Below, in pieces: positions 13,256 through 46,480 of a stretch of DNA of 64,000 bases. The DNA is from Crambe crambe (Eukaryota; Porifera; Demospongiae; Poecilosclerida; Crambeidae). The notes beneath the pieces are model-generated. The model was not told where the DNA came from, made no database searches, and saw nothing but the letters and a program-made list of their open reading frames with translations. Position numbers and translations under genes: made by a program. Position 1 is the stretch's first letter. Each line of letters opens with the position of its first letter. The stretch is taken from NCBI GenBank assembly GCA_963924555.1, contig OZ004589.1, positions 4,712,001 to 4,776,000 of the forward strand. The letters are read 5' to 3'.

Positions 13256-15687
13256 CTATAGAGTTGTGTGCAATATTGTTCTAAGTGATAGTGCCTTTTC
13301 AAAGGTTTCCTCGCAAGGAGTTGTGAGAAGGTGCAGCAGGTGCTTGAGTTCGCAGCCGAGGTGAACCTTGGTGATGTGGTCCGCAGGAAGGTTGCTCCTG
13401 CCGTACTTGTGCCCGCACACAGGACAGGCAAAGTCATCTGTGAACACTGGGATGGTGATAACGCGAAGGACTGTGGCAATTGCCCTGGCGCCTCGAATAC
13501 CTTGCTCCCTGGCCTCATCCCATAGTCTCATCCAACTAATATCACGGGAGAGAGCAGCAAGGTTCTCACGTGAAGACACTAGGGACCAAATGTAGTCACG
13601 ATCAGCAGCCTGGAGTTTGTCTTTAACTGCTCTCAGGGTGAGATGATTTTCAAAATTCTTTTCTTGCTGCAAAATAACTTCTGTCAGATTGGTCTTATAA
13701 ACCTGCTCCAGGAACTTGCACTGCTGAATCACTAGTGGCTCAGAATCTTTCTCCCTCAGACAGTTGAATACCTCCACACTGATGGACACCTTTTTGGGGT
13801 GTAGGAGACGCCAGAGGAAACTGATCTTGCGGTGAAGGATACGAAGTCTCATAGTAGGCCACTGGAGTGCAACTAGTGGGATGAGATTGGAGTGATGTTT
13901 TGGAAGGTTTAGGATTTTCTTGCCGAGTTCACCTTGGAACTGATCCAGCGATGAGATCATTGGCTCTGTTAAAATCCAGTTTTCTGAGCCATACAGACAG
14001 ACAGGTAAGACACAGACCTCGAATAGTTCACTGGATGAGAGCGGGTTCTGCTCACCATAAGCTATGCCATTAGCTCGGTGGGCGAAGAAGGCTTGTCGTG
14101 CCTTAGCAATGTTGTGATTAATTGACTCTGTTGGAGAGAGGTCATGTGACCACTTTACACCCAGGCAGGTAGAAGAACTCGCAGATGCAATGGTTGTCTC
14201 ACCTATGGACATAGTACTTGGCTGAGGTCTACGTATGGAGAACTCTTGAAGCTCCAGTTTATCTTCATTCAGTCGGAGGCCATTATCAACTGTGAACTGC
14301 CTTACAATAGAGGCTTGTTGTTCCAAGATATCTAAGTTTGGAGCCACGCCTCTCAGATCGTCTGCATGGCCAAGGGAGCCCAGATAGTGACCATGGATCG
14401 AGACTCCCAATCCTGTAGATTCTAGCTCCTCAAGGAGAGAGTCTATCACAAGTAAAAATAATAGCGGAGACAAGACTGACCCCTGCTTCACACCACGCCC
14501 AAGGTGGAATGCCTCGGAGTAATTCAACCCAAGACGGACACTGGCTGTGGCATCGTCGTAGAAGGCCCCAATGATCCTCCATGCCTTACCATTGATACCA
14601 GCTCTGTACAAATGATTGAGCAATACGTTGTGCTCAATGGAATCGAACGCCTTTTCCAGATCGTAGAAGCATTGGAAGACTGTTGCACCACCATCAATGT
14701 AGCTTCTTATCACCTCCTGTACCACCTCTGTTGCATCATTGCAGGACAGGCCAGCCTGGTATGCCGTCTGGGTGTGGTGTGGGATTCCTTTCTCTTCAAG
14801 TATGGGTTGAATCCTCAATAGTAGTACTCGTTCAAATAGTTTTCCGATCACGGATGAAAGTGAAATGCCCCTATAGTTCTTCGTCAAGAGTGGGTCTCTG
14901 CCCTTACCCTTGTAGATAGGGATAATGATCGTGTCCTTGAAACTGGGAGGTATTCCTTCCAGACGTATAATCTCATTGAAGATCTTTTTCAGCCACAACT
15001 CCAGGTAGTCACCTCCATAGATAACATGTTCAGACAAGATTCTATCAGGACCGCATGCCTTTCCTTTCTTCATCGATCTGATACAACCTTGAATCTCTTC
15101 AATGGTGACATCACAATCGAGAATCAAGTCTTCATTGTCAAAGGATGCACGCCTGTAGGATGAAATAACTGATCGCAGGTTCGTGAGGGTTAGAGATCCA
15201 GATGCCTTGGATGTACTGAGGTGTTTGAAATGATTGACCCATGCATTCATAACCTCGTCTTTATCTGTGAGGATGTTTCCATTTACATTTACCTTTAATC
15301 CTTGAGTAGTGCCAGTCCTGGGCAGTTTGAATCTCCTGCTGTCCTTTTCCCGGAATTTGTCATCCAGCTTTTCACTTTTGAGTCGGTCCGTCTTGCACGT
15401 AATGTGTTTAGTCTCTTCTGTACTTCCTTTTTAGCAGCCTTCCAGTTCTCCCATAGTTTGCCTTCGCGTGGTCTGCCTGCTTGTTGCCAGACTCCCCATG
15501 CAGCCTTACTTGCATTACAAAGTTCTCGCAAGTGATCATCCTTGAAGTAATCTTTTCTACTCCTTTTCCCTTGTTTTACCTTCGGTAAGAGGTTGTCCGC
15601 AGCCAGGATGATCGATTTGCTGACATGACAGATTTCGTCATCAAGTTTCGTCACAGTATCATTTGTGGCGTCCAATAGGGGTATCAC
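13256..15687 (-). pseudogene. 5'-truncated non-LTR retrotransposon: reverse transcriptase with C-terminal zinc finger
   Basis: The main minus-strand frame (15250-13256, 664 codons) holds a full reverse-transcriptase domain: GKACGPDRI, FKDTIIIPIYKGKGRD, NYRGISL, a palm motif FYDLEKAFDSIEHNVLL, GVKQGSVLSPLLF, and HADD in place of the usual YADD. The C-terminus has CPVCGHKYGRSNLPADHITKVH, a Cys2His2-like finger. A second frame upstream (15687-15295, KSIILAADNLLP, KDYFKDD) is the linker that normally sits between endonuclease and reverse transcriptase. The two are offset by one frameshift between 15295 and 15250. The endonuclease is missing, so the copy is 5'-truncated and dead. The clade cannot be fixed by eye. 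Nearly intact codons over 650 residues suggest fairly recent insertion. Confidence 0.85.
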
Positions 15688-15971: not shown

Positions 15972-18387
15972 GACACTAGACTACGTAGAGTGTCCTTCCT
16001 CATCCAGACACTTTATCTCTTGATCAGTGCTCTTTCTTCCCCCCACTCCATAAAGACACCTTCCACTTCCAAGTTCATCTGGTCACTGGTGGCCACCTTC
16101 AACCTGTACATGTCCTTTGCACAGATACATAGTTCTCCCCTCCCTCTTGAAACTCGTGACATCAAGATGAATCCTGGTCCAAAGAGTAAGTCCATTACTT
16201 AACCGGAACTGGAAATAACTCATATGGAGCATGTGCACTAGCTAAATTTAACAGTACATGATAGCTAGCTATAACTGAATTATGTACCATGTACTGCATA
16301 GCTACTGTAACTACAGCTACAGGAAAGTTAGGTATGCTAGAGAGTGGCACTGAATTATGCAGCTTCTTGCTTTATTTTCTTGGGGCGGAGATTTTCTGCC
16401 CCAAGCTTCCCAATTGAAAAATCCTCTCTCCTATATGATGTACATGCTCAACATAATTATTTGTGATTACTAGAACTTTCTTATCTGGTTATTGGACCAA
16501 TAGCCATTAATAAGCATCACTTATAATTATTAAGGGGCATGTCTAATTTGAAAACACATGCTTAACACCATTAACAGGATGTCTAGCCTTAGGTCACAAC
16601 AATTTTTCAATTTGGAGATGTCCCCTTACTTAGTACATTAGTTATAACAAAATCAATAATTGTATTATACTAAGAAGATAAGAGATAATAAAACAACAAC
16701 AACAACAGCAACAACAACAACAACAACAATGACAATGATAACAAAGCCATTAATAAGTGTGTGTGCAGTATACGTAGCTCTCCCTTGACAACCCTTATCA
16801 GCCAATGACCAATGACCAATGATCATTTCTATCATGTCCTTCAGCTGGGTTGGTGACAGATGACCTGAAAGAAGTGATGAATTGTATTTGGGATGTCCAA
16901 GTGAAATGGTTTTATTTGGGGATGGAATTGGGACTGCGTCCTTCCTCTCTTGAAGCAATAAGAAAAAAATTCAAAGACGATCCAGTAGAGTGTTTCGGCC
17001 AAATGCTGATGGACTGGTTGGCAGGTCAAGGTTCAGAACCAACATGGAAGAATCTCTCCTCTGCACTGAAAGCACTACCAGTTAACCATCCAGCAATAGC
17101 TAAGGTCATTGAAGAGAAATACCTCCAAACTTCTCATCCACCAGGTATAGCCACATAGCTGACACAGTGTACAACACAAGAATTATTGTCACATGACTTT
17201 GTAATTTTGTAGATATTGAAGCTCTCTTCCCTTACTTATCCAAAGACATGCCTGAACATGTCCGAACCAACTTCATCTTTCGTTTATCTAAAGATACTGA
17301 TGATATTAAAAACAAATTCATAGCTCTTGAGATTCGATTGCGCAGAGCATTGAAATCGGAAACAACAGCTGAAGAAATCATTCGAATTATTTCCAAAAAA
17401 GATGACAAATTTCGTGAAGTATTTAAAGATTATGACACGATTGATAAACTGCTTGATGAAGCAGAGCAACACTGGTCATTCTTTGATTATAATCTGACTC
17501 AGTTGTTCATCGATTGCATCTTTGAAGAAGAGCATCAACTCATGGTTCGGCTAAAATCTTATATAACACTATTCAAGGAGTATGCAAGACGCAGAATATG
17601 TGAGTGTCCAAGTAACGTCTTTGAGGATGAGAAGAAGAATGGAAAAGTCGTTGTGTTCAAAATAGAGGAATGCAACTTTGAAACCATGACTGTGGATGAA
17701 TTGAAGAAGCTTTGCTTTCAGCTCAACTCAGCAATAGGCTCTTACAACTTGAGATTGCTAAAAACAGATCCCGGCTGTGTCCAACTGACCTTCAGAGCCT
17801 TGCCCAGTGCAGACGAGATGATCCAGAAGCTAACCAGAGAAGAGCAGCAGGCTCTGAGGAACATGGGAGTCCTCAGCATCACCTATGGAGAACAAATATT
17901 GAACCTTGCATCTCCATCAGAAGAAATGTCTGAACATGAAGAGGCAACAAAGAAGACCACATCAGGTATACTAATTGCTAGAGAATGGGAAATCAGTTCT
18001 TGTATGTGCCTTTTACTATAGCAACTCTATTAATTTTGTAGACAAAGTAGATGCATGAAGTATTTTAATGTTGCAGATCTCACTGTTGAAGTTACTGAAA
18101 GTGAAGGTGAAAACAGTGACAGTTCAGACGCAAGTATGAACAGTGACAATCCAGTAAAATATTTTCTTTCTCCCTGCCCAGATCCTCCCTCCCCTACCCT
18201 CTCTCTGGAGGAACCAATGGCTGCCCTTCAAGTCAAGGATTATGATGATGATGCTGATTCAGCATTTGGTACGATCAGTGACATAACTAGAACAAGTGTG
18301 GGCACTCGTTCAACATATGGTGGAAGCATAGTAACTTCAGGACTGGGGACTGACATCTCCGATGAGTCCAAGGTAAGGAGCAAATGA
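15972..18387 (+). CDS. 2A-like leader plus death-domain protein (5' exons of a probable death-domain/ankyrin gene)
   Basis: Four exons join in consistent phase: (up to) 16185, 16845-17144, 17213-17965 and 18077-18372. Exon 1 has no stop from 15972; its first ATG is at 16108. It ends LETRDIKMNPGPK, a 2A-like motif (D-x-x-x-NPGP), immediately followed by GTAAGT. Exon 2 encodes a death domain of about 90 residues (WFYLGMELGLRPSSLEAI, QMLMDWLAGQG, TWKNLSSAL, IEEKY). Exon 3 is about 250 residues of mainly helical sequence I cannot name, with WSFFDYNLTQLFIDCIF. Exon 4 is Ser/Asp-rich and ends in phase 0 at AAG/GTAAGG. Reading through instead gives a stop at 18387. The phase-0 end fits the ankyrin exon at 21288. 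The likely role is cytosolic signalling in innate immunity or cell death (inference). The 2A exon might alternatively be a LINE relic; the phase match and donor argue against it. Confidence 0.72.
16692..16732. repeat. CAA trinucleotide microsatellite
   Basis: An ACAACAACA run with two interruptions, in intron 1 of the death-domain gene. Confidence 0.9.
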
Positions 18388-19413
18388 CAGAGTGGGAACT
18401 GGGTCTTTTATTTGACTGGTATATAATCATAGTTGGACTCTTCAAGATGTTTTACTCAAAATAGCTGCCTAGTTTCATTGTCATCAAACTCGGCAGCTTT
18501 TCTTTTTTATGTTGAATTCTTGCTACTGTCATGATAAATTAATCTGCCGTTGGAAAGATTTCATCTTTTGTGGACCATCAGTCATAGCTAGTGCAGACAA
18601 GTTCCCATTGCAATTATTCCTCGTAGATTTGTTTGAAATAGCTTTGAATAATGTTAGTATTTAGTCCAGTATTGAATTCAAAAAACAGAGTGGCAAGGGG
18701 ACATACGTATAGCTTTCATGGGGGTATCACTCCATGAAAACAAATAATTATTATAATTATAGAAAAAATCATGAGTCAGTTTCTTTCTGCCTAGCATCAT
18801 TCATCATTCATTTTCATCACCCACTAGCTACCTACTATATTATTGTCAGCTATCTATTGTCTGTCACAAATGCAAGTGTATCATTAATTTTATTATTAAG
18901 TATCGTGTGCTTGCTGGGAAGTGCAGCTGTTCTGTTCTGTTCCTATTTAGTTTTGAATGTTTAGTTTCGTGGCTTGTAGTTTCTAGCTCAGAAGTGATGT
19001 CAGCATGAGGAATAGAAAGGTTGAGGCAGCAGTCAAAGTGTGGGAAAGGAGAAAAACAAAACCTTTACAGTCCAACAGGCCCAAGAAGTCGAAGGCATAA
19101 TCTGATGAGTCGCATGGTAGTTGGGGATGAAACTATGAGCACAGGTAAGGTTGCTTGTACCATTAGGATTCCTCCATCTACACTGAAGGATGAAGATCGA
19201 GACCAAGAACATTTTTCTTTTTTAATAGAAATAATATTCAAATGATAAATGAAATTAAACTAGCTATACCTTTACAATTTTCTATCCTTGTTTGTTTGAA
19301 TTATAAGTGCACTAGTGACACCAGAACTGGCGATATTTCCAATTATCGCCCAGCCCTTGGCAATAATAAGATTATCGCCAATTTGTTATTTTTAACTAAT
19401 AAACAATAAACAT

Positions 19414-19500
19414 ATTCAATAGAATTAGTTCTCATAAAATTAGCTTATGAAACAAACCACCAACATTTCGACCAGAATACTCTAGCCTTCATCAGGGTGA
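19414..19500. repeat. single arm of the foldback palindrome found at 35267-35449
   Basis: From ATTCAATAGAATTAGTTCTC through CCAACATTTCGACCAGAATACTC to CTTCATCAGGGT, this matches one arm of the palindrome near 35.3 kb with very few differences. It shows that the unit is a dispersed repeat. Confidence 0.8.
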
Positions 19501-19689
19501 TCAAACAATTAAACAAGTAATAACTACACTGGCTGTTAAGCTATATGGAGCTTGAGCAAAATTATGTACCCAGCAGCCACATTCGTCACGATCGACTCAA
19601 AAGACGATACTTGCTGCCAGACCTTCAGGCTCATTACGATGACACAATGCACATCACTTTCATCCCTAAAACATGACGTAGGAAGATGT

Positions 19690-20436
19690 GTACTTCAACT
19701 AGGTCGGATGTTTGCTCCCGGGTCAGACTCACTGGTATCTTTTGCAGATGTCATGTGAGATGTAGAAGGACTTTGTATAGGTGGAGGGTCTTCATCATCA
19801 CTACACAACAGCCTTGTCACAGAGTGCTCCGTTTGCGTTTTGCATTCTTTTCTCTCTCTGCTTCCTTTCTTTCTTCTTTTCTTCCATTTCTTTCTTCTTT
19901 GCCTCCTTTTCTTTCTTCTCTTCCCTTTCTTTTTTCTTACGTTCTCTTTCTTCTTTCTTATCTTACTTCAATTTTTCAGCATCTTCTTTTTTTTTCTTTC
20001 TCTCTTCCAACAGCATTTCAGAAAAGTCATCTGCAGTTAGAGCTCTAACTCCTGTAATTCTTTTAGTACATTTCTTTGAAATAGCTGCATCCTCTAGTGG
20101 GGCAGCAAGAATATCAGAGAGGTCCTCTGGGATTAACCCAGCGGACACTAATGGGTTTACTATAGGAGAAGCCAGTGTGGGAGATATCTGAGGAAGGGTT
20201 GGATGTAAAGAGCTCACTGAAGAAGCCAGTGTGAGAGATATCTGAGAAAGGGTTGGACCTGAAGAAGAAGCAAGCGTGGGTGGAGAGCTCACCAGTGTGG
20301 GAGATATCTGAGGATGGGTTGGACCTGAAGAACTCACCGAAGAACCCAGTGTGGGAGATATTGATGGATGTGAAGAGCTCACCGGATGTTCTTGTAATAG
20401 TGGGGTGCTATGATTGGAAGGCGAAGGAGAAGCCAA
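19690..20436 (-). pseudogene. C-terminal tail of a Tigger/Jerky-like transposase (remnant)
   Basis: The minus-strand frame 20436-19963 is Ser/Pro/Thr-rich with a repeated PQISPTLASS-type unit, then KKCTKRITGVRALTADDFSEMLL and a long Lys/Glu helix. It stops, and in a neighbouring frame continues as pure KKER repeats and DDEDPPPIQSPSTS to about 19690. The R-A-L-T-A-D-D/E plus charged helix is what I expect at the C-terminus of pogo/Tigger-like transposases (family knowledge, from memory). No DDE core is present. It may come from the same family as the psq-HTH piece at 11419-11664. Confidence 0.5.
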
Positions 20437-20907
20437 TAAACGTTCATGTAAGGAACTAGAAATTGAGGAGGATCTTGTGTTAAGCTGCCATACATCGCAG
20501 CTAAAGAGTTAGAAACCAGAGGAGGATCTCGTAGAGAATAATTTTGTGGGTTGCTAGTAGGTCCTACATAATATTTGAAGGGTATAATTATATGGTTAAT
20601 AATGTATCTGGCAGTAATTGGAATACGTCAGTATAGTGAGAGTGGTATTATACTATAAAAAAATGTTTCTCTATACTGAAAGGGAAAAGAGATCACTGTA
20701 CTATTTTCTTACCTGAGCATCTGTTTCATTGAAGGGTAGAGGGGAATGTCAAATGAAAACAGACTGTAAAATTTCCAGAAGACAATTCACTTGCAGATGA
20801 AAGGTCTTGCAGGGTTGAAGAGTCATTTTATCCTTGGTATAACATCCACACTTTTAAACCCAGATTTGTTGGTTGGAATAGAAAATGCTCGTTCAAAGCA
20901 GCTTGGT

Positions 20908-21018
20908 GGGAGGCAGTGATGTAGGGATTATTATTGAAGGCAGCATTATTTTGATTTTTGTTGACAGAAACTGTTAAAGTACAGACTAACCCTACATGGC
21001 CTTTTTATTTAGCATAAT
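20908..21018. repeat. dispersed repeat, copy 1 (second copy at 62488-62596)
   Basis: GGCAGTGATGTAGGGATTA, then GACAGAAACTGTTAAAGTA, ACTAACCCTACAT and GGCCTTTTTATTTAGCATAA recur in the same order and orientation at 62488-62596, with point differences and small indels. Confidence 0.8.
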
Positions 21019-21287
21019 TTTTTTTCCTTTGATTAACGAGCGTGGGTGTTTTGAATTGAAAGTGGGCGTGGTCATCCAAAAGCGGGTTTGGTTTGCCCTT
21101 GGTCAATCGAAAGTGGGCGTGGTCAATCGAAAAATTCGCAAGCGCGCGCGCAGTATGCATTCCAATAACCCACTACAATCCATCATAGATAGATCAGACA
21201 AACAATCAATCAACTTACACATTCAAACTAAACACAAAACCGTAATTATTACTACTACAGTCACATTTTCCTTCCCTCACATCACAG

Positions 21288-22877
21288 GACAACAGAGGGA
21301 GAGACTTGGACGACCCACGTCTGGACATGTTAGACTCGGCACACACCACAACAGGGCACAATCAACAACTACACCATGCAGCCAAAGAAGGAAACCTAGA
21401 ACAAGTCAAGCATCTCATCATAAAGGGGCTCAATCCCTTGATCAAGGATAGGGAGGGTGATACAGTACTGCACGTTGCAGCCGACTACGGCAGACTGGAG
21501 GTGCTCAAGTACCTAATCGACGAAGTTCAATGCAACCCTGCACCTTCAGGGTGGCATGGAACTACACCTCTCCACAATGCAGCTGAAACAGGGCATCTCT
21601 CAACAGTCGAGTATTTAGTAGAAAATCATCAAATGGATCCACTCGACCAGGACGAAGATGGCTACTCATCTCTACATAGAGCCTGCAATGGTGGAAATTT
21701 AAAAACTGTAAAGTATTTGATGGAGAAGATGCTTCAGTACATGTCCATTCAGGACATATTTTCAGACTCCACCTCACACAAGACCACTCCCATACACGTG
21801 GCAGCACTGAAGGGGCACATCGATATTGTAAAGTATCTGATCAAAGACTGTCGATGTGACCCCAACCTCCCTAGTGGTGTGGATGGTAGAGGACCTCTCT
21901 TTATGGCTGCCCAGGAGGGTCACTTGTCCATTGTCAAGTTCTTGATAATGGAGTGTGGCTGTCACCCTGCCAGTAGAGACAACAATCAAGTCACCCCCCT
22001 ACATCTCGCTGCACAGAAAGGACACTTATCTACTGTCAAGTATTTATGTGAAGAGAGAAAGTGTGATCCACTCAGTACAGACAATGATAACACCACACCA
22101 CTTCACGATGCAGCCCTTCATGGACATAGTGATGTAGTAGACTATTTAATAAATGTCATGCATTGCAGTCCTAATGTTCCCAGTTGGCAAGGAAGACGAC
22201 CACTCCATGATGCTTCTCAAGAGGGTCACCTCCACCTCGTCATCAACTTGGTTGAGAGGCATGGCTGTGACCCTGCCAGTAGAGACAACAATCAAGCCAC
22301 CCCCCTACATCTCGCTGCACAGTTCGGACACTTATCTACTGTTAAGTATTTATGTGAAGAGAGAAAGTGTGATCCACTCAGTACAGATAATAATAACAGC
22401 ACACCACTTCAAGATGCAGCCCTTCATGGACATAGTGCTGTAGTAGACTATTTAATAAATGTCATGCATTGCAGTCCTAATGTTCCCGGTTTGCAAGGAA
22501 GACGACCACTCCATTCTGCTTCTCAAGAGGGTCACCTCCACCTCGTCATCAACTTGGTTGAGAGGCATGGCTGTGACCCCAACAGTCTGGATGACAATAA
22601 TGTCACACCTCTTCACATGGCAGCTAGGAATGGACACCTCTCCATCGTAAACTACTTAACCCAAAATAAAGGATGCAACTCGATGTGTCAAGATGTGAAT
22701 GGAGACACTCCGCTCCATGCAGCAGCCGAATATGGTCATCTTGCAGTCGTCAAGCATTTCATTGAACACATCCATTGCCCCCCAACCATCAAGAACAAGT
22801 TGAACGAGACACCACTCCAGTTGGCCCTAGAGAAGGGTCACAGTGAGGTGGTGGAATACTTACTCACTAAACAATGA
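21288..22877 (+). CDS. ankyrin-repeat exon (about 14-15 repeats), probable 3' exon of the death-domain gene
   Basis: Begins after a CATCACAG acceptor in phase 0 (DNRGRDLDDPRLDM) and is open to TGA at 22877, about 529 codons. From QQLHHAAKEGNLEQVKHLI onward it is an unbroken series of 33-35-residue ankyrin repeats with the TPLHxAAxxGHLxxVKYL signature, which form protein-protein interaction solenoids. Cysteines recur at repeat ends (KCDPL, HCSPN). Units at about 21971-22276 and 22277-22582 are nearly identical at DNA level with a 306-bp period, i.e. three ankyrin repeats duplicated together. No start ATG is needed if it is spliced to the phase-0 exon ending at 18372; otherwise the first ATG in frame (21327-21329) could start a stand-alone ankyrin protein. 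The fusion is favoured by phase but unproven. Confidence 0.85.
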   Translation, partial: DNRGRDLDDPRLDMLDSAHTTTGHNQQLHHAAKEGNLEQVKHLIIKGLNPLIKDREGDTVLHVAADYGRLEVLKYLIDEVQCNPAPSGWHGTTPLHNAAETGHLSTVEYLVENHQMDPLDQDEDGYSSLHRACNGGNLKTVKYLMEKMLQYMSIQDIFSDSTSHKTTPIHVAALKGHIDIVKYLIKDCRCDPNLPSGVDGRGPLFMAAQEGHLSIVKFLIMECGCHPASRDNNQVTPLHLAAQKGHLSTVKYLCEERKCDPLSTDNDNTTPLHDAALHGHSDVVDYLINVMHCSPNVPSWQGRRPLHDASQEGHLHLVINLVERHGCDPASRDNNQATPLHLAAQFGHLSTVKYLCEERKCDPLSTDNNNSTPLQDAALHGHSAVVDYLINVMHCSPNVPGLQGRRPLHSASQEGHLHLVINLVERHGCDPNSLDDNNVTPLHMAARNGHLSIVNYLTQNKGCNSMCQDVNGDTPLHAAAEYGHLAVVKHFIEHIHCPPTIKNKLNETPLQLALEKGHSEVVEYLLTKQ

Positions 22878-27571: not shown

Positions 27572-27747
27572 TAGTCACTCACTACTTCAGACTTGTTACT
27601 ACTGGTTGCAGATAGCTACGTATGAACAGTTCCAGTCCTTTATGTTGATAGCAGTACGTCCGTGGGCAAGTTATATTATCAGGTGACGACTACCCCAGCT
27701 CAAACTCCAAGCACAAATATAGGAAATAGCACTGCACGCACCGGACA

Positions 27748-29517
27748 GTGTTCCGAAGGCAGCATCCCCGCATCCCCACCCTTTCTGCCTGGATTGAAGC
27801 ATGCTATTCCTGCCAACCTTTCCTCTTTATGGGCAAAGAAACCATCCGCAACTCCTGTGGTGTGCAGCAAGGGGACCCCCTAGGTCCATTGGGGTTTGCC
27901 TTATCTCTCCACCCTCTGATAGAGAAGATCAGGGATGAAGTCCCTGGCCTCTCCCTCAATGCTTGGTACCTCGATGACGGCACCCTCATGGGTCACCCTG
28001 AGGACCTGGCTGCTGCCCTCCAAATCGTTGAGAGAGAGGGCCCCCTCTTGGGCCTCCACCTTAACAGAGGAAAGTCTCTTCTCTTCATTCTCAAGGAAGC
28101 GGATCATTCGCAATCTCCACTACCAGCCGACATTCCCATCACACGACGGGGCTTCTCCCTCCTTGGCTGCCCCATTGGACCACCTGATTTCTGTGAGGAA
28201 ATCTTTCAGGCTAGGCTGACAAAAGTGAGGACTTCCCTGGGTGCTCTGCGAGACTTAGGTGACTCCCAAGCAGAGATTACTCTCCTACGTTCCTGTCTCG
28301 CACTCCCCAAGGTCTCTTTTGTCCTCCGAGCCTGTCCTCCCAGCCATATACAGCAATCCTCGTGTGATTTCGACCAAGCCATCCGTGACACCCTGGAATC
28401 TATCGTGGGTGGTCCGTTGTCTGATTGGTCATGGCTTAAGGCAAGCCTCCCCAGCAGTCATGGTGGCCTTAATCTTCGCAGTGCCTCACTACATGCTCCA
28501 GCTGCTTTTTTGGCCTCTAGCACAGCCTCCAAGCATCTGGTGGAGCGCATCCTTGGTCACCCGCCTAGCTCCACACTCCACACCGTCCCTGCCGTGAAGG
28601 CCCTTGCCACCACAGCAGCCCGTTCTGACTGGCAAAATATTGATGATATCGATGTCCCTCTACGGCAACGCTCTCTTTCCCACAGCATTGATGAGGCCTC
28701 CTTCCAGAACTTACTCTCTTCTGCCCCCACCATCCGCTCACGAGCTCTGGCATACTCTTCAAGTCTGCCTCATGCAGGGGACTGGCTTAATGTGGTGCCA
28801 TCAACATCACTGGGTCTTCACCTTCAAGACAGAGAATTCCAATGCTGCCTGCGGTACTGGCTGGGAATTCCTCTCCAAAGTAATCCACTTCCTTGCCCAG
28901 AATGCCGGGACACTGCTGACATCTTTGGTGATCACCAGGTTGGGTGTAGTGGAAACGGTGACCGCATTTCCCGGCATAATGCCATACGTGACGTGGTCTT
29001 CTCTGCAGCCCAGTCTGCAGCCTTGGCCCCTTCCAAGGAGACCCCTGGCCTCCTTGCCAGCTCCCTCTCTCGCCCAGCTGATATCCTTCTACCCAATTGG
29101 AAAGGGGGCCGTCCTGCAGCTCTGGATGTCCATGTAATCAGCCCCCTGCAGCAGCAGACTCTAAATGAAGCCTCCTTCACCCCAGGCCATGCCCTTCAGG
29201 TGGGAGTGAACCGCAAGCTAGCATCCTCTTTATCAGCTTGCTGCTCGGCAGGCTTGCACTTCATTCCTCTGGTAGCAGAAACATTAGGGGGCCTTGCTGA
29301 CGACACAATTCAAACTGTTCGCTCCATTGGCAAGGCCATCACAGACAGAGTGGGTACTACAGATTCCTCCAACTCTTCCAAGCACCTCTTTGGTCGACTA
29401 GCCATCGCCCTGTGGCATCGCCCTGTGGCGTGGCAACGCCTGTTTATGGCTACATCGCCTCCCAACTCTCCCCCCCTCTCTAGACAGAGTGCCATGACTT
29501 GGACTTGCCCAACATAG
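27748..29517 (+). pseudogene. 5'-truncated non-LTR retrotransposon: reverse transcriptase with restriction-like endonuclease end
   Basis: A 589-codon open frame that begins inside a reverse-transcriptase palm domain. GVQQGDPLGPLGFALSLHPLI is near residue 35 and the catalytic WYLDDGTL is at about 73-80. The fingers and N-terminus are missing, so the copy is 5'-truncated at about 27745. After the thumb come CPECRDTADIFGDHQVGC (a CCHC-like knuckle) with RHNAIRD, then SRPADILLPNWKGGRPAALDVHVISP. The latter has the spacing of the PD-(D/E)XK nuclease found at the C-terminus of R2-type elements (family knowledge). There are no internal stops, which suggests recent insertion. The clade is uncertain. 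The base composition is more GC-rich than the spacer DNA around it. Confidence 0.8.
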
Positions 29518-29915: not shown

Positions 29916-29939
29916 AAAAAGAAACAACAACAGTGAACT

Positions 29940-32900
29940 ATGGCTACCTACGGCAAAATCAAGCCCTTTCAACCGTCTGTAGACGACTGGACTATTTACC
30001 AGGACAAACTGAAGTTCTATTTTTCCGCTAATGGCATCGTGGACGACACCAAGAAGCGTGCGATTTTGCTCACGGTCTGTGGCGACCCTGCTTACAAACT
30101 GCTCCGCAGTATGGTTCCCAATGGCGAGCTAGACGCTGATGGTATCACTTACACTTCTCTTGTTACCTTACTTAAAGACCATTACGCTCCTAAGACGTCG
30201 GTTATAGTGCATCGCTACAATTTCAATACTCGTTCAAGGAATCAAGGTGAATCCATTGCTGACTACGTTGCCGTCCTTCGAAATCTGGCTCTCGATTGCA
30301 AGTTTGGTCCGACAGAACGACTTGAAGAGATGCTCAGGGACAGGCTCGTTTGCGGAGTGAACCATACGGGAATACAACGCAAGCTGCTCTCTGAGAGTGA
30401 TCTTACCTACAGTACTGCCCTCAAGCTGGCCCAAGCAGCAGAAGCTTCAGAACAAGATGCAAAGAAGCTGACTGGTGGATCACCGCAGCAACCCTTCCAG
30501 GACAACAACCCTGATCTCCACTACACTACTTCAAGCCGCCGTCCTGAAGGTACACCTGTCAGTTGCTACCGATGTGGCGGACCTCATCTTGCGCCCAAGT
30601 GCAAGTACAAAGAGATTATCTGCAATTTCTGCAGGAAAAAAGGACATTTCGCTCGGGTGTGCAGGTCTAGGAAGTTACAGACCCAACCTTCTCAATCACA
30701 GGAGAACAAGGACTCCAAATACTCACGAACAAACCACATTGAAGCAGAGTCACCATCTGCTGAAGCTGAATATGATTTGTACAACCTCCATGATAATCAT
30801 ACTGAACCTTATCACATAATGGTAACCCTCAATGACCTTCCTGTGCAAATGGAATTGGACACAGGAGCTGCCGTTTCTGTAATCAGTGAAGCTACCTACA
30901 ACTCCATTCAGAGAGAATCACAGGCCTTGGAACCATCCAACAGCAGGCTTCGCACTTACACAGGAGAAAGCATCCAGGTGTTGGGCACTACCAGGATCAA
31001 AGCGAGGTATGATAAGAAAGAGTTGTCATTGTCAATACATGTGGTACCAGGGAGTGGCCCCAATTTATTGGGTAGAGATTGGATCTCTCAGTTGGAGGTA
31101 GACCTCAAAAGTATTCACATGGTTACATCACTTACTCCCTTGCAAACTCTGCTAGACACCTACAGTGCTGTTTTCACAGATGAGCTTGGCTGTTTGAAAG
31201 GTGTTAATGTACAGTTAGTGGTGCATGACCAAGCCAAGCCCAGATTCCACAGGCCACGACCCCTCCCCTTCCTACTGAAACCTAAGGTGGAAGAAGAACT
31301 CAATCAACTGCAGGAAAAAGGAATAATTTCTCCCGTTCAGTTTTCCTCGTGGGCTGCACCAGTAGTCCCTGTGTTAAAACGGAATGGCAAAATTAGGTTA
31401 TGTGGGGATTACAAACTTACAATTAACCAAGTATCCCCTACCGAAACTTACCCTCTGCCTCGTGCAGAAGAACTGTTTGCTAATCTTTCTGCAGGAAAAT
31501 TTTTCTCAAAGCTGGACCTCTCCAATGCATATCTCCAGTTTCCCCTGGATGAACAATCGAAACAGTACGTGACAATTAACACTCATAAAGGTCTCTTCCA
31601 ATACAACCGCTTGCCATATGGTGTGGCATCTGCCCCAGCAATTTTCCAGCGTCACATGGAGATGCTCCTGCAGGGTGCCAACGGTGTCAGTGTCTACCTG
31701 GATGACATCCTAGTTGCAGGGACCACCATGGAAGATCACTTACACAACCTCAAAGAAGTTTTGAAACGGCTAGATGATGCAGGTCTACGCCTTAACAAGG
31801 AAAAATGCTTTTTCCTTCGTCCTAGCATTGAATACTTGGGACATGTGATTGATAAAGATGGCCTACGTCCCACAGGATCAAAAGTTCGTGCAATCAAGGA
31901 AGCCCCTCACCCCAAGAATGTTACCCAACTTCGATCATTTCTCGGGCTCATTAATTATTATGGTAAATTTTTGCCTAATCTCTCTGCTCGACTCAACCCC
32001 CTCTACTCCCTCCTAAACAAGGATCAAAAATGGCAGTGGAATTGCGAGCAAGAAGAAGCTTTCCAGTCAGCAAAAGAGGCCCTGCAAGCAGATTCCCTCC
32101 TCACCCATTATGACACTACCAAGCCGTTACTTCTGGCATGTGATGCTTCCGATTACGGCATAGGTGCTGTGCTCTCGCATATTGGTGATGACAGTCAGGA
32201 ACGTCCAGTTGCGTATGCCTCAAGAACCCTATCTTCTGCCGAAAAACACTACTCGCAGTTGGAGAAGGAGGCACTAGCCATTGTCTTCGCAGTGAAAAAA
32301 TTCCATCATTACCTCTGGGGACGTCACTTCATGATCGAATCAGATCATCAACCTTTGAAATCATTGTTAGGTGAGAATAACAGAGTCCCATATATGGCCT
32401 CATCCAGGATACAACGATGGGCAGTTACACTTTCTGCATACCGTTATACAATACGCCACAAGGCAGGGAAACATCTCTGTAATGCAGACGCACTTAGCCG
32501 CCTGCCTCGCCCAGTCACTACGTCCAGTGATTGTGTGCCGCAGGATCTGGTACTGGTCATCAATCACCTCTCGTCCACAACAGTCAGTGCTGCCAACATC
32601 AAGCAGTGGACAGCTGAAGACCCAGTCATGTCTTGTGTCCTCAGATTTTTAATGTCTGGATGGCCTGACGAGCTCTTGGACAAGGAGTATCGGCCGTACT
32701 CCTCACGTAGGAGTGAACTTAGTGTCCTTGATGGATGCCTTCTTAGGGGATCTCGTATCATCATTCCTCCACCAGGCAGACAACTCGTCCTCGATGAACT
32801 CCATGAAACCCATCCAGGAACAAGCAAAATGAAAGCTCTAGCACGGTCATATCTCTGGTGGCCTGGCATAGATACTGCGATTGAACAAATGGTGAAAACT

Positions 32901-33911
32901 TGTCATGTATGTCAAGAGTCCCGACCCGCACCAGCAGCCGCCCCGCTCCACCCATGGGAATGGCCACAACAGCCATGGAGCAGGCTTCATCTCGATTTTG
33001 CTGGCCCATTTCTTGGGCACATGTTTTTAGTGCTTGTTGACGCACACTCAAAATGGTTAGATGTGCACTTGATGAACTCTATTACTTCTTCAAAAACTAT
33101 TGAAACACTCCGTTCTGTATTTGCCACCCATGGATTGCCACACAAAGTTGTAACGGACAATGGTCCATCATTTACGAGTGAAGAGTTTAACACTTTCTTA
33201 TCCAAAAACGGCATTACACATACAACCACAGCTCCCTACCACCCTTCCAGTAACGGCCTTGCCGAACGTGCAGTCCAGACCTTCAAAAGTGGACTTAAAC
33301 ATACACCAGGAGCTTCAATTCAAGAAAGACTTTCTAAATTTCTATTTAAATATAGAATTACTCCTCATACCACAACCGGAATTCCTCCAGCAGAACTGCT
33401 GATGAACCGTCGTCCCCGATCACGCCTGGACAGACTGTTTCCGGACATTTCCCATCGTGTTGAGCGGCAGCAAGCAAAGCAAGCTGAGCACCATGACAAT
33501 CACAAACCACTCAGGAGTTATCATGCAGGTGATACTGTGTATGTGAAAGACTTCTCAACCACTAAGAATACCTGGCTTCCAGGTAAAATAACCAAAATTA
33601 CTGGTCCACTCTCCTACCATGTTGAGTTAGACTCTGGTCGTACTGTACGTCGTCATATTGATGCTGTCCGTAGCAGGAATATTGCTCCTGTTCCACCCAG
33701 TGAACCTACCACTGAAAATGATATCTACCTTCCTGATTTGCCTCCTGCCACAGTAACCACAGCACCACCAATAGATCCCGACAATTCAGCTGTTCCTGCA
33801 TCACCACTGCACCAACCTCATACACAGCAGGCATGCTCGGTTAACAGTCGTGCCACTCCCACTCGACAGTCGAGTCGACACTGCCGACCCCCTGAACGAT
33901 TTGGATGGTAA
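29940..33911 (+). CDS. gag-pol polyprotein of Ty3/Gypsy-type retrotransposon
   Basis: 1323 codons in one frame starting with ATG at 29940; no frameshift separates gag and pol. In order: a gag-like region to about residue 200; two zinc knuckles (CYRCGGPHLAPKC and CNFCRKKGHFARVC, about 209-240); an aspartic protease with LDTGAAVS near 306; a reverse transcriptase with VYLDDILVA near 585; an RNase H with LACDASDYG near 733; and an integrase with an H-H-C-C finger (HETHPGT to CHVC, about 954-990) and a D-D-E core at HLDFAGP (about 1017), TDNGPSF (about 1072) and GLAERAV (about 1107). A GPLSYHVEL-type SH3-like C-terminal module follows. No chromodomain is apparent. All catalytic residues I can check are present, so the protein looks functional. 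Expression would be driven by the LTR. Confidence 0.96.
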   Translation: MATYGKIKPFQPSVDDWTIYQDKLKFYFSANGIVDDTKKRAILLTVCGDPAYKLLRSMVPNGELDADGITYTSLVTLLKDHYAPKTSVIVHRYNFNTRSRNQGESIADYVAVLRNLALDCKFGPTERLEEMLRDRLVCGVNHTGIQRKLLSESDLTYSTALKLAQAAEASEQDAKKLTGGSPQQPFQDNNPDLHYTTSSRRPEGTPVSCYRCGGPHLAPKCKYKEIICNFCRKKGHFARVCRSRKLQTQPSQSQENKDSKYSRTNHIEAESPSAEAEYDLYNLHDNHTEPYHIMVTLNDLPVQMELDTGAAVSVISEATYNSIQRESQALEPSNSRLRTYTGESIQVLGTTRIKARYDKKELSLSIHVVPGSGPNLLGRDWISQLEVDLKSIHMVTSLTPLQTLLDTYSAVFTDELGCLKGVNVQLVVHDQAKPRFHRPRPLPFLLKPKVEEELNQLQEKGIISPVQFSSWAAPVVPVLKRNGKIRLCGDYKLTINQVSPTETYPLPRAEELFANLSAGKFFSKLDLSNAYLQFPLDEQSKQYVTINTHKGLFQYNRLPYGVASAPAIFQRHMEMLLQGANGVSVYLDDILVAGTTMEDHLHNLKEVLKRLDDAGLRLNKEKCFFLRPSIEYLGHVIDKDGLRPTGSKVRAIKEAPHPKNVTQLRSFLGLINYYGKFLPNLSARLNPLYSLLNKDQKWQWNCEQEEAFQSAKEALQADSLLTHYDTTKPLLLACDASDYGIGAVLSHIGDDSQERPVAYASRTLSSAEKHYSQLEKEALAIVFAVKKFHHYLWGRHFMIESDHQPLKSLLGENNRVPYMASSRIQRWAVTLSAYRYTIRHKAGKHLCNADALSRLPRPVTTSSDCVPQDLVLVINHLSSTTVSAANIKQWTAEDPVMSCVLRFLMSGWPDELLDKEYRPYSSRRSELSVLDGCLLRGSRIIIPPPGRQLVLDELHETHPGTSKMKALARSYLWWPGIDTAIEQMVKTCHVCQESRPAPAAAPLHPWEWPQQPWSRLHLDFAGPFLGHMFLVLVDAHSKWLDVHLMNSITSSKTIETLRSVFATHGLPHKVVTDNGPSFTSEEFNTFLSKNGITHTTTAPYHPSSNGLAERAVQTFKSGLKHTPGASIQERLSKFLFKYRITPHTTTGIPPAELLMNRRPRSRLDRLFPDISHRVERQQAKQAEHHDNHKPLRSYHAGDTVYVKDFSTTKNTWLPGKITKITGPLSYHVELDSGRTVRRHIDAVRSRNIAPVPPSEPTTENDIYLPDLPPATVTTAPPIDPDNSAVPASPLHQPHTQQACSVNSRATPTRQSSRHCRPPERFGW

Positions 33912-35458: not shown

Positions 35459-36295
35459 TTAGAAGTAGCCACTATGTGTGATCCACTGTGAACAGTGATT
35501 TGTTGATGTGATGCTATAAAAAGCACTTTCCACAATAGAACAAGGGTTATCAATAGATTGCAGAATATCATCGTGTTTTCTTAGGTAAGATTTGACATAG
35601 CTGAAAGCCTCTTCTATAGGGTTGTAGTCAGGGCTGTAAGGCGGAAGGAAAAAAACAGGTATTCCTGAATCCTGAAAGATGCGTTTGACTTCTTCTACGT
35701 GGTGAATGGAACAATTATCCATGATTGCTATCGATTTTAGACTTACACCATCAAATGCAGTCATCTGTGGAATCACTTTACCTCTAACAAAATCAAAAAA
35801 TAGGTCAGAATTAACATTTGAGGTGGTTAATTCAAGTGAAACCAGGCCATCTGTTGCAATGGCAGCAATTGCTGATATTCGTTGACCTCTGACTAATAAC
35901 CTGTGACACTCAGGCACTTGACCTTTAAGTGCATATGCATACTTTCTCATATAACTACGATTATCACATCCAGTTTCATCCATCCATACAAACATTTCTT
36001 TCTTATACAATAGGACTTGGGCTATGAATTCTCCCCGTAAAGATACTGAGCGTTGTAGAGCAACTTGTCTAATTTTCTTTCGAGTAAATCCATGTCTATG
36101 TAACAGCTTGCAAATAGTTGACTCACATACATTAACACCACTCCTTTCCTTCACTTGTGAACATAACTCTTTCAAATAAAGAGAAGGCGTCTCTAGTATC
36201 AAGCCTATAATAAACATCTCTATATGATCATCCAGCTTCTTGAGGTATATTTTTGGTCCTTTATTTCCCTTAGATTCCACGTCACCTGTTTCCAT
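35459..36295 (-). CDS. IS630/Tc1-type DDE transposase
   Basis: A 278-codon open frame with a DDE_3 catalytic domain: first Asp in FVWMDETGCD, second in SIAIMDNCSIHH, third acidic position in PPYSPDYNPIEEAF. The piece upstream of the catalytic core (LKELCSQVKERSGVNVCESTICKLLHRHGFTRKKI) is the second helix-turn-helix. The first HTH is missing. Just 5' of the ATG, after one in-frame TGA, the same frame reads PDARWRLD, which resembles the conserved DLRWR start of the family's first HTH (seen in copies near 40 kb and 63 kb). So the N-terminus is decayed or supplied by another exon. The catalytic residues are intact. I see no matching terminal inverted repeats immediately around it. Confidence 0.85.
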   Translation of the reverse strand: METGDVESKGNKGPKIYLKKLDDHIEMFIIGLILETPSLYLKELCSQVKERSGVNVCESTICKLLHRHGFTRKKIRQVALQRSVSLRGEFIAQVLLYKKEMFVWMDETGCDNRSYMRKYAYALKGQVPECHRLLVRGQRISAIAAIATDGLVSLELTTSNVNSDLFFDFVRGKVIPQMTAFDGVSLKSIAIMDNCSIHHVEEVKRIFQDSGIPVFFLPPYSPDYNPIEEAFSYVKSYLRKHDDILQSIDNPCSIVESAFYSITSTNHCSQWITHSGYF

Positions 36296-36308
36296 GAATT
36301 GTGCAAAT

Positions 36309-40078: not shown

Positions 40079-40149
40079 AGACATTATTCGGCTCGATCGT
40101 CGCTCGTTGCTATGTATGTGCGCATGCGCACTACTAACCATCAATTGCA

Positions 40150-42801
40150 ATGAAAGCAGCCACTGTACAACAACAGCTTCTTTTGCAAAAACCGAGTAAG
40201 ACCAGTAAATCCAAGGATCACATTCGTCATCTACAACGACGTCTTGATATGTGGCAGAAAGGTGATCTTGACACACTTCTACATGAGGGACAGAGTATAC
40301 AAAAAAGGCTGAAGTCAAAAATTACTACCAGAAGTGAAGAATCCACAGCTCGTTCCTTTGGCAGACTCATGAAAGAGGGGAAAGTCCAGGCAGCCTTGAA
40401 ACTCCTAACAAAACAAAAACCAGGAGGGATTTTAGATTTAAATGACAAAGTAAAGTGTGGTGATGATCAACAAACAGTTCGTGATATCTTGGCCAAGAAG
40501 CATCCACCTAAAGTTAATCCTCCAGCAGATGCTCTTCTCCCAAATCAAATGACTATTCCTCATGATATTGTGTTTGACAGTCTGGATGCAAACCTTATTC
40601 AAAGAGCTGCTATAAGAACCAGTGGTGCAGCTGGTCTCTCTGGGCTTGATGCATTTGCCTGGCGCCGTCTGTGCACCTCTTACAAATCTGCCTCCACCAA
40701 TCTATGCAAGGCCATGGCAGCTGTGGGCCGCCGGATCTGTACCTCCCCTATTGATCCTCTATCTATATCTGCTTTCGTTGCCTGCCGTTTAATTCCTCTT
40801 GATAAATGCCCTGGAGTTCGCCCCATTGGCATAGGTGAGATCCCACGGCGCATTATCTCAAAGGCCATCCTATGGATTCTTTCAATTGACATCGAATCAG
40901 CAGCCAGCCCCCTACAGACATGTGCAGGACAGGTGGGAGGCTGTGAGGCAGCTATTCATGCAATGAAGAAGATATACCAGAACCCCGAGATTGAGGGCAT
41001 TCTGCTGGTAGATGCTGAAAATGCATTTAATCACCTAAATAGATCTGCTGCTCTCCACAATATCAAGTGCCTGTGCCCTCAATTCAGTACCGTCCTGGCA
41101 AACACCTACTCAGATCCAGTTCCAATGGTGATCCCCGGCAGTGGTGAGATAAGTTCAAGTGAGGGTACCACTCAGGGTGATCCCTTGGCAATGGCCATGT
41201 ATGCATTAGCAGTCACCCCGCTGATAGGTAAACTACATCACCTCGTGCCAACTTGCAAACAAGTATGGTATGCAGACGATTCCACTGCAGCTGGCTCCAT
41301 AGGAGATCTCAGGAAGTGGTGGGATGAGATCTCCATAGTAGGCCCAGGATATGGGTATTTTCCAAATGGCATTAAAACCCATCTCACTGTGAAAGCAGAA
41401 TATGCGGAACAAGCCCATTCTCTCTTCTCTGGATCAGGCATTGAAGTGACAACAAGAGGCCACAGACATCTTGGAGCAGTAGTGGGATCAGCAGCCTTCA
41501 GGGAAGAGTATGTAAGGAAGCGTGTTGATGAGTGGGTCAGTGAAATTCGATGCTTATCAAAAATCAGCCAAACACAGCCTCATGCAGCTTATTCAGCTTT
41601 TGTACATGGTCTAACGGGTCACTGGTCTCACATAATGCATACAATTCCTGACATCAGCCACTTACTAACCCCCCTAGAGAATGTCATCCATCAAGAATTT
41701 ATACCCTCACTGTCTGGCAGACCAGCCAGCTCTAGCTTGGAGAGGAAGATTTTTGCACTGCCAGCAAGATTGGGGGGATTAGGTCTCATGAATCCTGCTA
41801 CTTGTTCGGACCGCACTTATCAGTTTTCAATTAAACTAACAACCCCATTGGTGGACTTAATAGTTTCTCAACAATTATCTGGTGAGGTAGATCTGGAGAA
41901 TACACTATCAGCCAAGAAAGAAATCAAAGAGCTGACTAGACTATCTGCCATTCAACAGGCAAGTGATGTTGATGAGATTTTGGATCAGCACCAAAAAAGA
42001 CTCGTGACCTTGTGCAGGGATAAAGGGTCGTCCATCTGGCTCACCTCCTTACCCATTGAGGAACATGGTTTCCACCTACATAAAGGGGAATTTAGGGATG
42101 CACTTTGTTTGCGATATGGATGGACCATCCCCAACACTCCTCAATTCTGTATCTGTGGAAACAAATTTGAAATTGACCATGCTCTAAGCTGCAAGAGAGG
42201 TGGCTTCATGATCCAGAGGCACAATGAACTTCGTGACTTTACAGCTACCCTCCTAACTGAAGTGTGTCATAATGTATCCACAGAACCCCCACTCCAACCA
42301 TTGCAAGGAGAAATTTTCAATTATCGAACTGCTAACACCGACTCTGAAGCGAGGCTTGATATTAAAGCTAGAGGATTCTGGAACCGAGGCCAGGATGCAT
42401 ACTTTGACGTTAGGGTTTTCAACCCAAATGCTCCTAGCTATCGCTCCCAGGATCTGACACATTTATATCGAAGAAATGAACAAGAAAAGAAGAGAGAGTA
42501 CAACCAAAGAGTCCAGGAAGTAGAGGCCGGTGTGTTCACCCCCCTCGTTTTCTCAACCTCAGGTGGCATGGGGAAAGAGAGTAGTGTGTTCTACAAGAGA
42601 TTAGCTGATTTTTTATCTACGAAAAGAGACATGCCATACTCAAGGACAATGGGATGGCTTCGATGCCGCCTCAATTTTACCCTACTACGCTCTGCCATTT
42701 TATGCATAAGGGGTTCTAGATCAACAAGAAAAAATCCACTTCTCGAGACTGACATTAATCTTGCCTCAGCGGAGAGCAGACTATCACCAGACCCTGATTG
42801 A
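40150..42801 (+). CDS. non-LTR-type reverse transcriptase with C-terminal restriction-like endonuclease
   Basis: 883 codons, open throughout. The reverse transcriptase spans roughly residues 130-480: GVRPIGIGEIPRRIISKAIL, GILLVDAENAFNHLNR, EGTTQGDPLAMAMYALAV, and catalytic WYADDSTAAG (YADD at 374-377). The C-terminal half has a CICGNKFEIDHALSC knuckle followed by QRHNELRD, then EARLDIKARGFWNRGQDAYF and DVRVFNP, the D...D-x-x arrangement expected of a PD-(D/E)XK nuclease. Such proteins are common in cnidarian and sponge genomes (family knowledge). The N-terminus looks short compared with what I remember, so the copy may be slightly 5'-truncated. An A-rich tail at 42891-42912 is consistent with target-primed insertion. 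Intact catalytic motifs suggest recent activity. The clade name is left open. Confidence 0.85.
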   Translation: MKAATVQQQLLLQKPSKTSKSKDHIRHLQRRLDMWQKGDLDTLLHEGQSIQKRLKSKITTRSEESTARSFGRLMKEGKVQAALKLLTKQKPGGILDLNDKVKCGDDQQTVRDILAKKHPPKVNPPADALLPNQMTIPHDIVFDSLDANLIQRAAIRTSGAAGLSGLDAFAWRRLCTSYKSASTNLCKAMAAVGRRICTSPIDPLSISAFVACRLIPLDKCPGVRPIGIGEIPRRIISKAILWILSIDIESAASPLQTCAGQVGGCEAAIHAMKKIYQNPEIEGILLVDAENAFNHLNRSAALHNIKCLCPQFSTVLANTYSDPVPMVIPGSGEISSSEGTTQGDPLAMAMYALAVTPLIGKLHHLVPTCKQVWYADDSTAAGSIGDLRKWWDEISIVGPGYGYFPNGIKTHLTVKAEYAEQAHSLFSGSGIEVTTRGHRHLGAVVGSAAFREEYVRKRVDEWVSEIRCLSKISQTQPHAAYSAFVHGLTGHWSHIMHTIPDISHLLTPLENVIHQEFIPSLSGRPASSSLERKIFALPARLGGLGLMNPATCSDRTYQFSIKLTTPLVDLIVSQQLSGEVDLENTLSAKKEIKELTRLSAIQQASDVDEILDQHQKRLVTLCRDKGSSIWLTSLPIEEHGFHLHKGEFRDALCLRYGWTIPNTPQFCICGNKFEIDHALSCKRGGFMIQRHNELRDFTATLLTEVCHNVSTEPPLQPLQGEIFNYRTANTDSEARLDIKARGFWNRGQDAYFDVRVFNPNAPSYRSQDLTHLYRRNEQEKKREYNQRVQEVEAGVFTPLVFSTSGGMGKESSVFYKRLADFLSTKRDMPYSRTMGWLRCRLNFTLLRSAILCIRGSRSTRKNPLLETDINLASAESRLSPDPD

Positions 42802-45895: not shown

Positions 45896-46480
45896 GCTGG
45901 CAACTAACTAGCTAATTTGCTAGCTGCTATGTATTCATACAGTAGACCAGAGCAGAAAGACACAGATAATGTTATCACATACGTGCACAGGATCATGTGG
46001 TTTTTTTATCCCATTATCATATCCATAGTGCAATTAACTAGATACACTCAACAAACTTTAATACCAATAACAATAACTAAGTAACTGTATAGCTAACATA
46101 ATCATGTACATCAATGAAATTTCAAAAATAAGCATGCACACTTGATGGTAACTAGCTACATCTAGCTACATGCATGGGTTTACCTTGAAAGAACATAGCT
46201 ACATCTTGTCCTTTTCTTGGCCCATAATACTGATGAGGTTCAAGCCTATGGATATAGGATACCCTCAGGACATGAATTTATCCCCACACATACAGCATGA
46301 TAGATACGTACACACTCAGCATTGAAGGTTTTTATCAAATAGGGATACCACGTGTGCTTATTCTGAATTTTTATTCATGCTATAGTAACTGTTGTTGTTA
46401 TTGCTATTTGCTAGCTAATGGTTGTTTGAGTGTATCTAGCTAATAGCATGGATGTTTATTAACAGAAGAAACAACACGCA

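Follow-up and report, generated by a model that had tools for sequence, protein, structure and literature searches.

Cellular leaders ending in a 2A (StopGo) motif have been described on the NLR genes of the sea urchin (PMC4981915; also PMC12846837 and, as NLRs, PMC11512398), and PMC12846837 calls the use of StopGo by cells rare. No other cellular 2A leaders, nor any in sponges, were found in the open-access literature. A sponge paper considered as a '2A-like' report (PMC5890393) was rejected, the term being there an unrelated gene name.

The locus described here lies in a stretch of 64,000 nucleotides of the sponge Crambe crambe (hereafter the window; G000:C12:4712001-4776000), and its relatives were searched for in the genome at large (143.1 Mb, 119 contigs). 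The sea urchin SpNLR2A genes (PMC4981915) likewise have an N-terminal 2A leader on death-domain immune genes, and the canonical relatives of the window copy share with them the D(V/I)ExNPGP core following a hydrophobic tract. One gene, at G000:C12:668135-669482 (L102), has the sea urchin layout, with a 2A motif followed by a death-like domain (15.8 bits, below the cut-off) and a NACHT domain (86 bits), as in an NLR-type gene. Unlike SpNLR2A, however, the window copy itself is without the glutamate and the hydrophobic tract, and seems to start inside the motif. A further difference is that the leader is here an exon with a phase-1 end, standing before death domain-ankyrin, death domain-Ig, Ig and death domain-NACHT genes, with 208 motifs in all. 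By analogy with PMC4981915, the canonical relatives probably behave like SpNLR2A leaders: skipping would free a cytosolic protein starting with P, and a failed skip would keep the leader and make a secretory route possible.

Compared with the viral StopGo/2A sequences of PMC12846837, the canonical relatives fit the core and resemble the L-rich upstream motifs, but they are cellular and far more numerous than expected of cellular genes, and the window copy fails the core. As for the gene behind the leader, Amphimedon has a vast expansion (357) of NCOA6-clade proteins with a death-like domain, a TRADD-N domain and ankyrin repeats (PMC8195603). The window gene shares with this clade the domain order and a large lineage-specific expansion, although its TRADD-N match is below the curated cut-off; the terms '2A-like' and 'signal peptide' are not present in the text of PMC8195603.

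The window gene and its first exon

A preliminary description of this DNA had exon 1 end in RDIKMNPGPK and join, in frame, the death-domain exon that starts at 16845, which is borne out. The last base of exon 1 is 16185; its end reads ...LETRDIKMNPGPK plus one base, then the GTAAGT donor, in phase 1, and the acceptor of the death-domain exon reads ...CCTTCAG/CTGGGTTGG, also in phase 1. The match of phases is a reading of the sequence, with copies that recur in the genome, and supports in-frame splicing of the two exons. The motif by itself would say little: NPGP occurs once in the six frames of the 64 kb, where a Markov model gives a mean of 0.53, and at least one NPGP turned up in 24 of 60 simulated windows. 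A lone NPGP per window is therefore at chance level and the case for exon 1 rests on its relatives; it is the recurrence of both exon and junction elsewhere in the same genome that argues for exon 1 being real.

The end first given for the gene, at 18387, does not hold, the stop there being one of read-through past an AAG/GTAAGG donor at 18372/18373, after which the frame resumes in the ankyrin exon at 21288 (Table 1). Spliced from 16167 to 22874 over the five exons, the frame without the stop amounts to 985 aa. On the exon 2 frame the death domain (PF00531) scores 25.5 bits against a cut-off of 22.6, and in a 456-aa piece 22.4 bits, just under that cut-off, while the death-domain profile of the family matches the death domains of PIDD, FADD, RIPK1 and CRADD in PDB (best E=1.7e-5). 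TRADD-N (PF13820) was matched in 4 of 11 family members, with a best E of 0.012, below the cut-off. NACHT is absent from the scanned parts of the window gene, which has ankyrin repeats instead and so is without the death domain-NACHT-LRR layout of SpNLR2A. Judged by these matches, the window gene is a member of a large, tandemly expanded family with a death domain, a TRADD-N-like region and ankyrin repeats.

Table 1. Exons of the window gene and parts of its exon 1 (positions in the window)
Feature	Position	Strand	Remarks
Exon 1, upstream part	15972..16166	+	probable relic of a 2A leader, now mostly 5′ UTR; frame open here; aligned with intact C9 leader
6-base insertion (exact placement ambiguous)	16104..16112	+	creates the sole upstream in-frame ATG (16110); from alignment
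Probable decayed 2A core, D-I-K-M-N-P-G-P	16158..16181	+	C9 relatives: D-V-E-S/T-N-P-G-P
Exon 1, coding part, MNPGPK + 1 base	16167..16185	+	proposed start codon 16167-16169; donor GTAAGT at 16186
Exon 2, death domain	16845..17144	+	PF00531, E=1.4e-5
Exon 3, helical-looking, then weakly TRADD-N-like region	17213..17965	+	PF13820, 0.012, below cut-off
Exon 4, acidic linker	18077..18372	+	donor GTAAGG at 18373; similar exon in C9 gene L054
Exon 5, ankyrin repeats and stop	21288..22877	+	Ank_2, 4e-123; TGA 22875-22877

Judging from its residues, the window copy very probably does not work as a 2A element. In place of the core (D/G/C/N)(V/I)ExNPGP it has DIKMNPGP, with K at p14, and in place of an upstream hydrophobic or other known tunnel motif and the G at p11 it has PLPLETR before the D. 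In 2,465 viral octapeptides p14 is hardly ever anything but E; H is tolerated there and E14Q is 26-56% active, and altered upstream motifs led to near-complete loss of activity in almost all cases tested (PMC12846837). K at p14 was not among the variants seen in that paper. Over the 12 residues that precede the core, mean Kyte-Doolittle hydropathy is -0.7 in the window, whereas all 30 canonical relatives read lie between +1.5 and +2.8. With K at p14, R for G before D and this low hydropathy, the window copy is presumed inactive. Two features once attributed to it have to be given up. The hydrophobic leader is one of them, as no in-frame ATG lies upstream of 16110 and the stretch beginning there is not hydrophobic. 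The other is the pair of protein forms expected from skipping, given the K for E at p14, the loss of the LLxLxG tract and a family start that seems to be the M inside the motif.

The window also holds frames of other kinds. An intact frame of 1324 aa at 29937-33908 (+) is of LTR-retrotransposon type, with protease, RT, RNase H and integrase; further RVT_1 reverse-transcriptase frames lie at 13259-15430 (-), 27730-29514 (+) and 40138-42798 (+), and a transposase frame (DDE_3, HTH_Tnp_Tc3_2) at 35462-36307 (-). Two similar long frames in inverted orientation, at 44258-45907 (-) and 47728-49395 (+), have a signal-peptide-like start (SMDC..FLLLLIPCSEASGD); the former matched no Pfam family in the scan.

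Paralogs of exon 1 and their canonical relatives

A DNA search with exon 1 gave at least 40 scored matches in the genome, and several types of query brought the number of exon-1 places to 51 among the loci retrieved, of which 45 are of the window type and six are canonical ones on C9. Most of the window-type copies belong to a single tandem array (C10, 0.14-1.26 Mb), and all 45 are followed, on their own strand and at no more than 4 kb, by a listed death domain. Conversely, a window-type exon precedes 29 of the 30 best death-domain places by 4 kb at most; the exception is C18:3207659. Exon 1 is thus multicopy, but it is not a part of a multicopy LINE consensus only.

The preliminary description had considered exon 1 an exapted LINE 5′ exon, that is, one donated by the 5′ end of a non-LTR retrotransposon bearing a 2A sequence. 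Such sequences are known in non-LTR elements (PMC4981915), and the reverse-transcriptase frame at 13259-15430 (-), with an adjoining frame to 15699, has its nearer end about 270 bases upstream of exon 1. However, the minus strand of the window lacks NPGP, reverse transcriptase was found in 0 of 20 Pfam-scanned ORFs near the sampled canonical sites, and the exon sits in tandem arrays of death-domain genes, each window-type copy ahead of a death domain. A LINE donor is therefore unsupported here, and we consider it very improbable.

What the window-type copies have in common is a start codon. ATG stands at the x position of the motif in 45 of 45 (44 by script, and C16:1660212 read separately), with A at -3 in 44 of 44. 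A GTRAG donor in phase 1 from this ATG follows in 44 of 45, a count that depends on phase 1 having been a condition of the donor script; the 45th has GTAGG at equal spacing. Exact NPGP is retained in 13 of 44 copies, MNPGQ is found in 22 and MDPGP in three, and the remaining six have S, A or K substitutions, a 3-base insertion or a 9-base deletion, yet the variants without exact NPGP all keep the phase-1 donor from the motif ATG. The leader frame itself has decayed. Read from a conserved anchor, it runs without a stop or shift as far as the motif region in 7 of 37 copies, and is broken or shifted before the motif in the other 30 (seven of the 44 copies, without the anchor, were dropped from this count).

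An in-frame ATG upstream of the motif is found in just three of 44 copies, namely the window copy, where ATG 16110 is the first after 15972 and has T at -3, and two with identical exon-1 DNA. This ATG would be the starting point if the window copy were a functional 2A variant, with partial skipping at NPG/P giving forms with and without a short leader. Its being in frame, the intact NPGP and the canonical state of the homologous leaders would all fit; but ATG 16110 sits in a 6-base insertion and upstream in-frame ATGs are confined to these three copies, read-through from upstream into the motif is impossible in the 30 copies with broken frames, and the K at p14, the R before D and the lost hydrophobic tract speak against activity, which makes such a variant very improbable.

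The exon-1 DNA of the window (16000-16198) is 100% identical over 199 bases to C10:774,633 (L065) and 946,595 (L066), and the death-domain exon differs by about 4% in the same pairs. A recent exchange or conversion of exon 1 between the C12 gene and the two C10 genes is possible. Two more matches to the decayed start motif, at G000:C5:4616098 and C5:7263289, stand beyond the copies examined.

The homologous exons on C9 read LLILCGDVE(S/T)NPGP-E/GTAAGT, with an intact leader in 8 of 8 copies read (L054-L059, L091 and L092, out of 19 located in the array). A small upstream exon predicted for them gives MKEA(EKT)LK-VLVGDLSSPTSNTFCVQSDLGDHGSLLNLSFAQTVLPSLLILCGDVE(S/T)NPGP-E/GTAAGT, with variants; this exon 0 was cut by script at the intended donor in seven of the eight, and the donor of L058 was read by eye. 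All eight leaders are open in frame and keep an identical spacing of 60 bases, their changes of length are multiples of three, and over the last 26 codons replacement differences (0.008) are lower than silent ones (0.032), the differences being few and non-independent.

The roughly 60 bases upstream of the window motif align with the coding leader of these C9 exons, at an equal distance to the phase-1 donor; owing to one gain and one loss of 4 bases each, the LLILCG of the C9 leader reads PLPLETR in the window. This alignment is what a chance origin of the motif has to face, the protein in that case merely beginning with MNPGP and having no 2A ancestry. Although a single NPGP in 64 kb is close to the chance level and half of the paralogs (22/44) have MNPGQ, a fortuitous motif would hardly lie at that same distance behind a stretch matching leaders that end in a perfect GDVE(S/T)NPGP, and we hold it to be improbable.

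The C9 genes resemble the window gene further downstream as well: four of them have an exon-3 homologue of 30-33% identity, and L054 has also a similar exon 4 and ankyrin repeats. Their death domain is of a different subtype, with a profile-profile match to the window type of 94.1% (E=1.3e-7). Searched against PDB, its profile hit nothing better than a designed helical repeat protein and a chain of 56 residues (E 0.03 and 0.9), and its assignment as a putative death domain is based on the profile-profile similarity and on weak Pfam scores. In another array, at 4.1-4.4 Mb of C10, the three genes sampled all start MDPGS...LNLSFSLVLL(S/C)ALLMLSGDVELNPGP-E/GTGAGT, with DVELNPGP as core, and the death domains of this array are 52-65% identical to that of the window. 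A canonical copy at C8:6309246 (L088) has M at the x position, GDIEMNPGP; one base away from K at p14, it is a plausible intermediate between the canonical and the decayed form.

Given the exon and its phase, its paralogs, its homology to canonical leaders, the decay of the frame and the conserved ATG, exon 1 is very probably a decayed 2A leader whose motif site now serves as start codon. The ancestor would have been a StopGo/2A leader, its hydrophobic N-terminal peptide closing with GD(V/I)ExNPGP and encoded by an exon that ended in phase 1. Along the window lineage K would have replaced the E of the core and ATG the x codon, and frameshifts and stops would have erased the hydrophobic tract. 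Translation would now start from the motif ATG and give a protein beginning with MNPGPK, in a single cytosolic form, so that the product once freed by skipping would be made permanently from a start codon. The sequences suggest, rather than show, that the motif ATG is used, that the protein is cytosolic, that the canonical relatives are active and that the change ran from canonical to decayed. The conserved ATG, the rarity of upstream ATGs and the broken leader frames indicate that RDIK and the preceding part are mainly 5′ UTR and that NPGP makes up residues 2-5. As the active tract is about 25 aa (PMC11512398), a nascent chain only four residues long would be unable to do 2A skipping. In the window and the two identical copies, some ribosomes could start at the in-frame ATG 16110 and give an N-terminal extension with the altered motif; and, as MNPG is fairly conserved after the ATG, the N-terminus could still matter.

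The decay may not have been a single event. A death-domain tree of 35 chosen rows and about 100 residues, many near-copies being left out, needs two changes between the canonical and decayed labels, one change sufficing in 3% of 200 bootstrap trees, and sets the canonical array at C10:4117k beside some decayed genes (84/93). This would fit two separate losses, or an exchange of exon 1 among genes. Comparably close death-domain places at C6:1759419 (75%), C21:724458 and C6:153151 (60%) were left out of the first-exon reading.

Canonical 2A leaders across the genome

At the DNA level, D(V/I/M)ExNPGP occurs 208 times in the genome and the reversed pattern 0 times, the chance expectation estimated from codon counts being about 0.3. 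Among the 162 sites that were located, 119 are in arrays of at least three sites with neighbours within 100 kb, and 25 are single. Measured against incomplete lists of 300 death-domain and 103 NACHT places, a listed death domain starts within 1 kb downstream on the same strand in at least 26 of the 162, upstream or on the opposite strand in 0 of 162, and in shifted controls within 1 kb in a mean of 1.7 (maximum 6). Within 10 kb, listed death domains lie downstream of at least 32 located motifs vs upstream of nine. Listed NACHT places are found downstream of at least one motif within 1 kb and of at least four within 10 kb, and upstream of none.

Thirty sites were read, comprising six on C9, 20 spread over arrays and four chosen for a neighbouring death domain or NACHT. 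The canonical relatives at these sites have the core (by selection, except in L103, L105 and L106), the hydrophobic tract and an open leader frame, with an in-frame ATG in the unspliced open frame at 26 of 30; the remaining four are L058 and L059, both on C9 and with an exon 0 predicted, and L074 and L083, which are open. A GTRAG donor follows within 18 nt of the motif at 23 of the 30, always at an offset of 1, 4 or 7 and thus in phase 1 (23/23), against a background of 2.3% for GTRAG at any offset.

What comes after the leader varies among the 20 sites spread over arrays. Seven have a death domain that reaches the Pfam cut-off (L075, L077, L078, L083, L087, L082 via L096 and L084 via L097), and another seven have a death-like exon, below the cut-off or by similarity only (L076, L080, L085, L086, L088, L091 and L092). 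One continues with Ig domains alone (L074 via L094), one with ankyrin repeats alone (L090 via L099), and four have no family assigned downstream (L079, L089, L093 and L081, the latter with a helicase match below the cut-off). In L081 (C5:5002626) the frame in question is RecQ/DEAD-like, some 460 bases past the canonical leader and below the Pfam cut-off. The gene with Ig domains was sampled from an array of canonical leaders at G000:C1:3553873-3988060, and no death domain was noticed in the about 3.7 kb downstream. A 2A leader on death-domain genes, as first proposed, thus appears to be real for the relatives of the window gene, not for the window copy.

The wider implication is one to which we give an even chance: StopGo would operate here on the scale of an immune repertoire, with about 200 leader exons of phase-1 end shuffled onto death-domain, NACHT, Ig and ankyrin genes and receptors split between secretory and cytosolic forms, whilst in at least the window lineage the skip site would have become a start codon, point by point, locking the product in the cytosol. 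If true, the 208 canonical motifs, many of them before death-domain exons, would make StopGo a regular feature of an immune-type repertoire. The window gene itself teaches that an NPGP without the E and the hydrophobic tract is not a 2A. Together with its relatives it would form a natural series, running from the intact leader through x = M and the loss of E to a bare start codon, and along this series dual targeting, like its loss, may be compared gene by gene.
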